Shown one piece after another: positions 35,084 through 37,195 of a stretch of DNA of 64,000 bases. The position numbers were made by a program, and so were the translations under genes. The DNA lies in contig NZ_JAUHLN010000001.1 in NCBI RefSeq assembly GCF_030412265.1, positions 620,001-684,000 of the forward strand. Reading direction: 5' to 3'. The notes below the pieces were generated by a model, which saw only the letters and a program-made list of their open reading frames with translations, was not told the origin of the DNA and did not search any database. Source of the DNA: Fictibacillus terranigra (GTDB lineage: Bacteria; Bacillota; Bacilli; Bacillales; Fictibacillaceae). Position 1 is the first letter of the stretch; every line of letters begins with the position of its first letter.

Positions 35084-35110
35084 TAAACATTCCCATTCGA
35101 TAGACGATAT
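35084..35110 (+). promoter_or_regulatory. Sigma-D promoter of hag
   Basis: TAAA (35084-35087), exactly 15 nt, GACGATAT (35103-35110): one mismatch from the sigma-D consensus. Transcription would start near 35118, giving a leader of about 105 nt. Confidence 0.88.
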
Positions 35111-35222: not shown

Positions 35223-37155
35223 ATGAGAATTAATCACAACATCGCGGCGCTAAATACTTACCGTCAATTGAACAGTGCTTCTACAGCACAATCTAAATCA
35301 ATGGAGAAATTATCTTCTGGACTTCGTATTAACAAAGCGGGAGATGATGCTGCAGGGCTGGCAATTTCTGAAAAAATGCGTGGGCAGGTACGTGGTTTAG
35401 ATCAAGCATCACGTAATGCTCAGGATTCTATCTCCATGATTCAAACAGCAGAAGGCGCATTAAACGAAACACATGACATTTTACAACGTATGCGTGAATT
35501 AGCTGTTCAAGCAGGAAATGATACAAATACAAGCGGGGATCGTACTGAAATACAAAAAGAAATCAATCAGTTAACTTCAGAAGTTAACCGTATTGGGAAC
35601 ACTACAGAATTTAACACTCAAAAATTGCTAAATGCTAGCGCAGGTACAGTAACTCCTGCTGCCGCTGCGGTAGCAGGTGATTATGCAATTACTATTGGTA
35701 CAGCTGACGTCACAATTGACGGTAAGATTTTCACTTACAATGCTACTGGTGGTGGAGTTACTAACTTTAAAAACTCAGCTGAGCTAGCTACTTTAATTAA
35801 TAATGACGCAACATTATCTGCGAAGTACACGGCAGCTGATGCAACAGGTAAGTTGCAATTAGTTCAAAAAGCAGGTCAAGAGTCAGCTACAGCTCCAGTT
35901 GCATCAGGGACAGGTGTTGCCTTAGCTACTACAACAGCAGGAAAAGTGGCAGCAGCTGCAAAATCTTCATTTTCTTCTCAAATTGGTGCGAACGAAAACC
36001 AAACTATGACTTTAGACTTTGCTGATATGAGAGCTGCTGCACTTGGAATTACTGGTACTTCGGCAAATTTCACTTCTACAGCAACAGTCACTGATGGAAC
36101 AAACAATACTGCAAATGAAAAAGCACTGGATGTGAGTACTTCTGCTAAGGCAGGTAATGCCGTAACTGCTATACAAGGTGCTATTGATAAAGTTTCTGCT
36201 GAACGTTCTAAATTAGGAGCTAACCAAAACCGCCTAGAGCACACAATTAACAACTTAGGAACATCTTCCGAAAACCTAACTGCTGCGGAATCCCGTATCC
36301 GTGACGTAGATTATGCTTTAGCTGCTTAGGCAGTGACAAGCACAGTCGTCCTGGCTGGTAACGGTCAGTGATAATTATCGGGTGAATTGCTGGAAACCCC
36401 TTAAGCTTTTCTTGCCACAACGTAGTTGGAAACGACAGGCGTGAAGGTTAAAAAAAGAAAAGATTGGGCAATCAGCAGCCAAGCTCCTGTCTCGAAAGAG
36501 TGGAGAAGGTTCAACGACTAGGATAGACCATCTAAGGCCAAAAGCTATGATGATGAAATCCGTAGGTGACACAATGTGGTTCAGCATTGTGGATCCGAAG
36601 TGCCCGACCCTTACTAGATTGCTAGAGGGTGAAGATATAGTCTGGTCATTTATGAAAGTAAATGTTCGCACGATGGCGAAAGAAATGATGAACCAAACAA
36701 AGAACTCTATTCTTTCTCAAGCAGCACAAGCTATGCTGGCTCAATCCAATCAAATGCCTCAAGGTGTATTACAACTCTTGAGATAATTGATTCCAAGGGC
36801 GTCTAGTTTGGCAACGAGCTAGATTATCACTGGGTGAATTGCTGGAACTTCCTAAAGCTTTCTCAACCACAGCGCAATCGGAAACGATAGACGTAACGGT
36901 TTGAAAATGAGAAAGATGTACAATGGATAATCAGCAGCCAAGCTCCTGTCTCGAAAGGGTGGAGAAGGTTCAACGACTAGAATGTACTGTCTACGGCAGA
37001 TGCTATGACAATGAGATTCGTAGGATGAGAAATCATTCGAAGTGCCCAGCCCCTTAACATTAAGGGTGAAGATATAGTCTATTCTGTTGCTGAAAAGCAC
37101 AGTGGCAAAGCAAGCCAACCAACAACCACAAGGAGTTCTTCAACTTCTTCGTTAA
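35223..37155 (+). CDS. hag: Flagellin (Hag), gene split by two group I introns
   Basis: Filament subunit exported by the flagellar apparatus. Exon 1 (35223 to about 36317, 365 codons) has the D0/D1 N-terminal helices (MRINHNIAALNTYRQL; EKLSSGLRINKAGDDAAGLA) and the start of the C-terminal D0 helix (AAESRIRDVDYA). Read unspliced it stops at 36327. Exon 2 (about 36679-36741) gives KEMMNQTKNSILSQAAQAML-A. Exon 3 (37111-37155) gives QANQQPQGVLQLLR and stop. Joined product: 400 residues with an intact flagellin C-terminus. If only the first intron is removed, exon 2 continues to a stop at 36784 and also gives 400 residues, ending QSNQMPQGVLQLLR. Introns were placed by reading frame, conserved flagellin C-terminus, a T before and G at each intron end; boundaries are provisional. 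Confidence 0.9.
36318..36678 (+). ncRNA. Group I intron 1 in hag (about 361 nt, no endonuclease)
   Basis: Self-splicing ribozyme core is visible: P element AATTGCTGGAAA (36385-36396), Q AATCAGCAGCCAAGC (36470-36484), R GTTCAACGACTAG (36509-36521) and S AAGATATAGTCT (36632-36643), with a P2 stem CTGGC/GTCAG around 36350-36368. The 5' site after TATGCT is supported by a P1 of 5 bp with a U.G pair (36314-36318 with 36328-36332). The intron ends in G (36678). A shift of both ends 6 nt upstream (36312-36672) also keeps frame. No reading frame of useful length lies inside. Confidence 0.88.
36742..36786 (+). other. Alternative flagellin C-terminal tail inside intron 2
   Basis: The first 45 nt of intron 2 continue exon 2 in frame as QSNQMPQGVLQLLR then TAA. 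Compared with exon 3 (QANQQPQGVLQLLR) there are two residue changes, while 8 of 14 codons differ only synonymously. Retained intron 2 would thus still make a complete flagellin. Confidence 0.85.
36742..37110 (+). ncRNA. Group I intron 2 in hag (about 369 nt, no endonuclease)
   Basis: Sister of intron 1: P AATTGCTGGAA (36837-36847), Q AATCAGCAGCCAAGC (36929-36943), R GTTCAACGACTAGA (36968-36981), S AAGATATAGTCT (37069-37080), and P2 stem TCTAGTT/AGCTAGA near 36802-36823 with the same TGGYAACG loop as intron 1. Boundaries after GCT (36741) and after G 37110 restore LAQANQQPQGVLQLLR. A strong P1 for this 5' site is not obvious (only GCU/GGC at 36798-36801), so the 5' end is less certain than the core. 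Confidence 0.85.
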
Positions 37156-37162
37156 TATTTCA

Positions 37163-37195
37163 AATGGTCATCTCTATGGGGGTGGCCATTTTTTT
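37163..37195 (+). terminator. hag terminator downstream of exon 3
   Basis: AATGGTCA and TGGCCATT form an 8-bp stem followed by seven T residues. Its place after exon 3, not after the earlier stop at 36786, shows that exon 3 is inside the hag transcript. Confidence 0.88.

Follow-up and report, generated by a model that had tools for sequence, protein, structure and literature searches.

That flagellin genes can contain self-splicing group I introns is known from the work of Hayakawa and Ishizuka (2009, 2012) on Geobacillus stearothermophilus and thermophilic bacilli, where splicing is reported to be temperature-dependent (PMC3984707, PMC4853749). These introns, cited as IA2, resemble those of the hag gene considered here in being group I introns of flagellin genes, and the accessible parts of the two sources mention neither a duplicated tail nor an LAA ending. 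The nearest precedent appears to be the group II intron C.te.I1 in a surface-layer gene of Clostridium tetani, where unspliced RNA makes up approximately 75-95% of the mRNAs (PMC3919590). There too a surface protein is concerned, and the unspliced mRNA encodes a complete isoform. According to the excerpts available, C.te.I1 is served by several downstream exons and gives distinct isoforms, whereas the hag intron belongs to group I, brings its own copy of the coding end and yields an almost identical protein.

An early in-frame stop codon is present in most group I introns (PMC3073962, PMC3984707). Those of phages and bacteria share with hag a stop located before the ribozyme core, which is thought to shield folding from ribosomes. 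As far as these sources describe them, such stops serve folding only, whereas the codons before the hag stops are under selection at the protein level. IStrons are group I introns reported to use alternative splice sites and to give rise to protein variants (PMC4853749, PMC4227781). An IStron would carry a transposase ORF along with the intron; the hag introns lack one, as neither the ORF list nor Pfam revealed an IStron-type transposase between 36312 and 37110. The tags added by tmRNA (ssrA) are reported to end commonly in LAA and to lead to ClpXP (PMC9382460), and in Bacillus thuringiensis GFP was reported to be dimmer when its tag ended in LAA or LVA than when it ended in AAV or ASV (PMC5732988). 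Among the literature matches listed, from a search that subscription papers mostly fell outside, neither a duplicated tail nor an LAA ending in flagellin introns was described, and the best 15 of 46 matches for ssrA together with introns held nothing on this arrangement. Flagellin introns as such are known, and the spare-tail arrangement reported here appears to be new among the matches listed, which is not proof of novelty.

The window, a stretch of 64,000 nucleotides from Fictibacillus terranigra, contains a flagellar cluster with FliW, CsrA, flagellin, FliD and FliS as identified by Pfam. The flagellin gene, hag (35223-37155), is interrupted by two group I introns within its last 37 codons (Table 1). 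Both match RF00028 over the whole model, intron 1 with 94.2 bits at 36318-36664 and intron 2 with 83.2 bits at 36783-37102 (cut-off 50), and these are the only matches to this family in the genome. The consensus of sigma-D promoters is TAAA-N15-GCCGATAT, and a possible promoter of this type is located upstream of hag. The terminator-like consensus that matches directly downstream of exon 3 occurs at five sites in the region, compared to 2.1 expected.

Table 1. Features of the hag locus, with positions in the window.
Feature	Position	Strand	Evidence
Possible sigma-D promoter of hag (TAAA, 15 nt, GACGATAT)	35084..35110	+	By eye against the consensus
hag exon 1, 363 codons, ending ...RDVD	35223..36311	+	Pfam Flagellin_N and first part of Flagellin_C
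Group I intron 1	36312..36672	+	RF00028; T before 5' site in 57/57 relatives; last base G
Intron 1 read-through YALAA-stop, in P1 extension hairpin	36312..36329	+	Translation; predicted fold; 54/57 relatives ending AA
hag exon 2 (MAKEMMNQTKNSILSQAAQAMLA), 23 codons	36673..36741	+	Sequence and intronless relatives
Group I intron 2	36742..37110	+	RF00028; GCT before 5' site in 110/110 relatives; last base G
Spare C-terminus QSNQMPQGVLQLLR-stop inside intron 2	36742..36786	+	14-codon tail in 113/116 relatives; dN/dS 0.046
Intron 2 3' arm of P1 extension (TTGATT) and guide sequence (GGGC)	36787..36800	+	Partners AATCAA and GCU|C; fold; arm permutation
hag exon 3 (QANQQPQGVLQLLR-stop), 14 codons and stop	37111..37155	+	Purifying selection in relatives
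Terminator-like hairpin and T run, directly 3' of exon 3	37162..37195	+	Consensus match

Joining of the three exons results in a protein of 400 residues. When intron 1 is removed and intron 2 retained, the reading frame continues from exon 2 into the intron (CAATCC...AGATAA) and encodes QSNQMPQGVLQLLR followed by a stop codon at 36784-36786; this product, with a C-terminal peptide ending in SNQMPQGVLQLLR, is also 400 residues long. A first-pass annotation of this DNA had noted the equal lengths, which translation reproduces base by base, and had counted the differences between the two tails correctly: they differ at residues 2 (S in the intron, A in exon 3) and 5 (M and Q), with synonymous differences in 8 of the 14 codons. 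Exon 1 covers the 86 positions of Flagellin_C up to position 50, and exon 2 together with the intron tail covers positions 51-86. The proposal that a retained intron 2 is neutral for the protein stands, but on a condition that had been left out: intron 1 must have been removed, as the protein otherwise lacks 37 residues and ends in YALAA. This intron 1 half of the arrangement was absent from the first-pass annotation, which had captured one part of a conserved design with two introns.

The last base of both introns is a G (36672 and 37110), as expected for group I, and lies 8 nt past the end of the Rfam match. The base preceding the insertion point of intron 1 is a T in all 57 genes that have the intron (GAT), compared to 32 of 69 genes without it. 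For intron 2 the numbers are 110 of 110 (GCT) and 13 of 18, the latter including two genes (L172 and L217) that were later found to bear an intron with a variant core. This T is the U of the U-G pair that marks the 5' splice site of group I introns; in the guide sequences, GUC pairs with GAU (intron 1) and GGC with GCU (intron 2). Intronless relatives are contiguous at both sites, reading DVD-MAKEMM and MLA-QANQQ. The contiguity, the invariant T and the terminal G with guide pairing together place the splice sites where they had first been put.

Other placements were considered and rejected. Placing the 5' site of intron 2 further downstream, close to QGVLQLL, where the Rfam match starts (36783), is contradicted by the T before 36742, which is invariant only in genes with the intron, by the 3' ends located 8 nt past the Rfam match and by the covariation of the P1 arms. 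A 3' site of intron 2 at 37102 is out of frame with sensible 5' sites, as checked by hand, and a 5' site of intron 1 between CUGCU and UAG is ruled out by the junction of DVD and MAKEMM in intronless genes. Three ORFs of at least 60 amino acids (79, 88 and 98 amino acids) are located mainly in the introns. Pfam assigned only the flagellin C-terminus to the first and nothing to the other two, and neither the ORF list nor Pfam gave a homing endonuclease ORF in the hag introns.

Relatives were collected from 34 genomes at the family level, from a pattern scan of 84,980 named species and from an order-level set of 397 genomes, of which 158, in 70 of 135 genera, contained similar intron DNA; 40 further regions were added. 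The pattern scan gave 68 stretches, nearly all from Bacillales by genus name; two labelled Pseudomonas and Roseomonas look mislabelled or contaminated. Sampling was by the group I family model, by a core pattern without the tail and by intron 2 DNA, using as query either the whole intron or the part from 36780 on, which includes the last 7 bases of the tail. De-duplication left 116 introns at site 2, of which 61 come from named records, 54 from other genomes and one from the window. Since the count demanded ATG-Leu-GCT before a CA or TA codon, introns located elsewhere in the gene would escape it. Four anchors first typed as site 2 (L005, L031, L082 and L233) were dropped as non-flagellin.

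An in-frame tail followed by a stop codon was found in 113 of the 116 distinct site 2 introns, always with 14 codons and always ending in VLQLL and one more residue, so that chance can be set aside as the source of the tail. The stop codon is TAA in 105, TGA in 5 and TAG in 3. One of the introns without a tail is located in a fragment lacking an upstream flagellin (L099, near 5527) and has two stops within the tail, indicating that the tail can decay once the upstream gene is lost. A further copy without an upstream flagellin exon (L228, near 2123) was left out of the 116. The second tailless intron, in the second flagellin gene of L213, is treated below. The third is a true exception: in L221 (intron start around 886) the spare tail is 44 nt long, one base short, and frameshifted into the guide region, while exon 3 is intact. 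As the gene looks intact, the tail is not indispensable everywhere.

Exon 3, for which a decaying leftover would have spoken against the proposed arrangement, is intact in 111 of the 116 genes (107 by pattern and four by eye), and for the remaining five (L121, L124, L130, L132 and L148) the retrieved sequence stops short of the end of the exon. The pattern required Q-A at the start, so that codons 1-4 of exon 3 are uninformative on conservation. An intronless flagellin (L159) naturally ends in QSNQMPQGVLQLLR, which makes this a workable C-terminus. Among the sequences compared, the combination of intron tail and exon 3 is old and conserved, spanning many genera.

The first-pass annotation had suggested that both tails have been kept by selection, and the relatives bear this out. 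Codons 6-14 of the intron tail have a dN/dS of 0.046 (80 unique tails), compared to 0.585 and 5.1 when the same DNA is read one or two bases out of frame, and exon 3 has a dN/dS of 0.088 (41 unique copies); these figures are based on the first 84 of the final 116 introns. As sequence pairs are not independent, changes were also counted on a tree of the intron core (107 rows, 104 with tails). In codons 9-13, 152 nucleotide changes in the intron tail and 121 in exon 3 have occurred, without a single amino acid change in either. Residues 2-5 changed 63 times in the intron copy and 9 times in exon 3, where the pattern largely fixed residues 1-4; more change in the intron copy is expected here, since codons 2-4 also serve the P1 extension. 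Selection on both tails at the protein level is thus well supported.

The alternative offered with that suggestion, namely that the tails come from different flagellin alleles mixed by recent recombination, did not hold. Identity between tail and exon 3 is 0.717 within the same gene and 0.720 between different genes, and synonymous sites have diverged nearly to saturation between the copies within a gene (pS 0.74). The shared protein sequence is therefore explained neither by recent duplication nor by gene conversion between the tails, the latter being rejected on the comparison of own and other copies.

The two tails of a gene agree at residue 8 in 101 of 104 genes and at the last residue in 100 of 104. 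Residues specific to certain lineages occur in both copies (last residue Q in 10 genes and G in 3; residue 8 A in 7 and S in 3), and the mismatches are K/R in three genes, Q/R in one and S/G in three. With only four independent contrasts on supported branches (median p 0.125), independent co-evolution of the two tails is suggested but not significant. Translation of exon 3 in frame requires splicing, whereas the intron tail can be translated only from unspliced mRNA, so selection on both implies that both messages are probably made, which is as far as sequence by itself can lead. Intron 2 is then probably spliced in some transcripts and retained in others, with both mRNAs mattering to the cell, and translation of both into complete proteins, as in C. 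tetani, would follow.

In the tail of intron 2, codons 2-4 make up one side of the P1 extension and covary with its other side, which lies ahead of the guide sequence. When 36733-36806 is folded, the minimum-energy structure holds the pairings GCUC/GGGC and AAUCAA/UUGAUU, with a z-score of -1.67 and 11 of 200 shuffles folding at least as well. Across 80 distinct arm pairs, own arms pair with a mean of -8.26 kcal/mol, which none of 200 permutations reached, compared to -7.38 kcal/mol for swapped arms, and compensatory pairs are exemplified by GAATAG/CTATTC in L135 and CAATAG/CTATTG in L162. In intron 1 the own arms also pair better than permuted ones (0 of 300 permutations).

This pairing could suggest that the tail is kept merely as a P1 extension hairpin, its coding capacity being incidental, and the predicted fold of the window contains an additional pairing within the tail (CUCAAG/CUUGAG). 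We consider this very improbable. Codons 9-11, unpaired but for one base, have undergone 74 nucleotide changes without a replacement; the 14 codons and a stop persist in nearly all copies, with three different stop codons in use, and frameshifts in the tail are rare (1 of 116, in L221). Just as hard to credit is that the tail was left behind by intron insertion or allele mixing, the copies being alike through gene conversion or recency. Two homologous tails do flank the ribozyme, as an insertion duplication would leave them, but the near-saturated silent sites, own copies that are no closer than foreign ones and the occurrence of the arrangement across many genera all oppose it.

The first-pass annotation had further suggested that splicing could change the tail presented to FliS and the filament core. 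A regulated switch, in which the splicing of intron 2 is tuned, for instance by temperature, so that the C-terminus changes from S/M to A/Q and alters the behaviour of the filament or of a chaperone, seems unlikely, though less so than the two former explanations. It would fit the temperature-dependent splicing reported for flagellin introns of thermophilic bacilli (PMC4853749) and the S at residue 2 in 93 of the 113 intron tails. Exon 3 mostly has A at this position, but the pattern that identified 107 of the copies required it; the four copies found by eye have A in three cases and S in one (L227). The remaining 20 intron tails have A themselves, and the paired and covarying codons 2-4 make RNA pairing a likely reason for the preference of S over A. 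Furthermore, residue 5 of the intron tail changed 36 times on the tree whereas residues 9-13 never did, and no second function of the tail is evident. Rescue of the unspliced product by the tail within intron 2 is the likely reading.

Read-through into intron 1 ends in AA in 54 of 57 distinct introns and in LVA in two and LAV in one of the others. YALAA accounts for 45 of the AA endings and YVLAA for three, with YAIAA, YDLAAA, HTEAA, YDLAA, YDSAA and YAFAA found once each; 48 of the 57 genes also contain intron 2, and Fictibacillus arsenicus (L110) and F. nanhaiensis (L142) are examples with both introns. The YALAA of the window has the C-terminal LAA that, with its working variants, characterises ssrA-type degrons, and shares its final ALAA with the tmRNA tag of the host, GKTNNNLALAA. 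The tmRNA tag is added in trans to stalled ribosomes, whereas the YALAA of hag is encoded in cis by the intron. Tags ending in AA were found in 33 loci among the 34 genomes with a pattern that itself required AA, and ARAGORN predicted tags for five of 12 loci, all with an AA end. As a control, 11 introns in another protein gene, presumably nrdE, were inspected and none ended in AA: their frames read ...LVEQGGSR before the stop, with ...GGSR-stop in ten and ...GGSRRGKTA-stop in one. These (L005, L031, L035, L036, L082, L084-L087, L090 and L091) are the 11 of 21 non-flagellin anchors with a long upstream frame.

YALAA is a probable degron for the truncated flagellin. That it is instead a by-product of a conserved GCUGC/GCAGU stem without any role in proteolysis, with intron 2 acting as proposed, is less probable but a serious competitor. 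The AA codons are located in the paired and nearly invariant coding arm (GCUGC) and could be retained for the sake of RNA pairing, and most AA endings derive from one inherited sequence, so that 54 of 57 does not represent 54 independent events. Changes of the leader on a tree of intron 1 (54 rows) point the other way. Position 15, the third base of codon 5, changed 23 times and position 18, the last base of the stop codon, 9 times; both are unpaired and silent. All other positions changed 0-4 times; among the latter the unpaired positions 2, 8, 16 and 17, which set the peptide or the stop, changed 0, 2, 0 and 0 times. The opposite arm is more variable, by a count uncorrected for insertions, and HTEAA, YDSAA and YAFAA have retained AA despite changes in other residues.

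A possible further case is the second gene of L213 (intron start around 2913), in which the spare tail at site 2 has been lost and the frame reads QFEQIAA-stop with other codons. This may be an independent AA ending, a rescue tail changed to a degron. It is the sole such case, and its fold is unclear: the usual P1 is absent and part of the AA codons is paired in the prediction, for which reason an initial view of these codons as unpaired was dropped.

It is an old question how self-splicing introns persist in bacterial genes that are translated, when ribosomes may arrive before the intron has folded. The sequences seem to hold an answer, in that the introns encode an outcome for the products of early ribosomes. 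With transcription and translation coupled, ribosomes can arrive at a 5' splice site while the ribozyme is still to be completed, folded and spliced out, and each intron would then code for the fate of the protein they make. With a stop codon immediately ahead of the guide sequence, the ribosome would be released before it enters the ribozyme core. Intron 2, inserted only 14 codons from the end of the gene, is near enough to carry the missing end, and its spare codons would give a complete flagellin whether spliced or not. Intron 1 would supply an ssrA-like degron that directs the shortened flagellin to ClpXP. For the gene in the window, flagellin production would be gated by the splicing of intron 1, and it would make no difference whether intron 2 is spliced.

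That each intron encodes the fate of its unspliced product, proteolysis for intron 1 and completion for intron 2, we regard as quite probable. Sequence and comparison establish the two introns with their splice sites, the duplicated tail, the selection on both of its copies and the conserved AA ending. Within this reading we infer that coupling is the cause, that the intron 1 product is degraded and that the two tails are functionally equal. The wider proposition, to which we incline with some reserve, is that flagellin introns of Bacillales provide a cis-encoded degron followed by a replacement C-terminus, as a protein-level adaptation to coupled translation, with the output of flagellin reporting the splicing of intron 1. 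From an evolutionary angle, the selection described above is evidence that translation of unspliced messages from a bacterial gene is frequent enough for selection to act, and two predictions follow, one of a rescued protein and one of a degraded protein. The ends of flagellin genes in such genomes may also be misannotated.

The distribution of the introns at short range is patchy: among the seven genomes of the genus to which the window belongs, only one other (G001) has a flagellin intron, and only intron 1, and four species are without any group I match. As a separate observation, group I matches overlap the 3' end of the tmRNA gene in several relatives (L044-L047 and L066-L080). ARAGORN reported no tmRNA in the seven such loci tried; in one example (G023:C5) the matches are located at 901554-901891 and 901880-902170.
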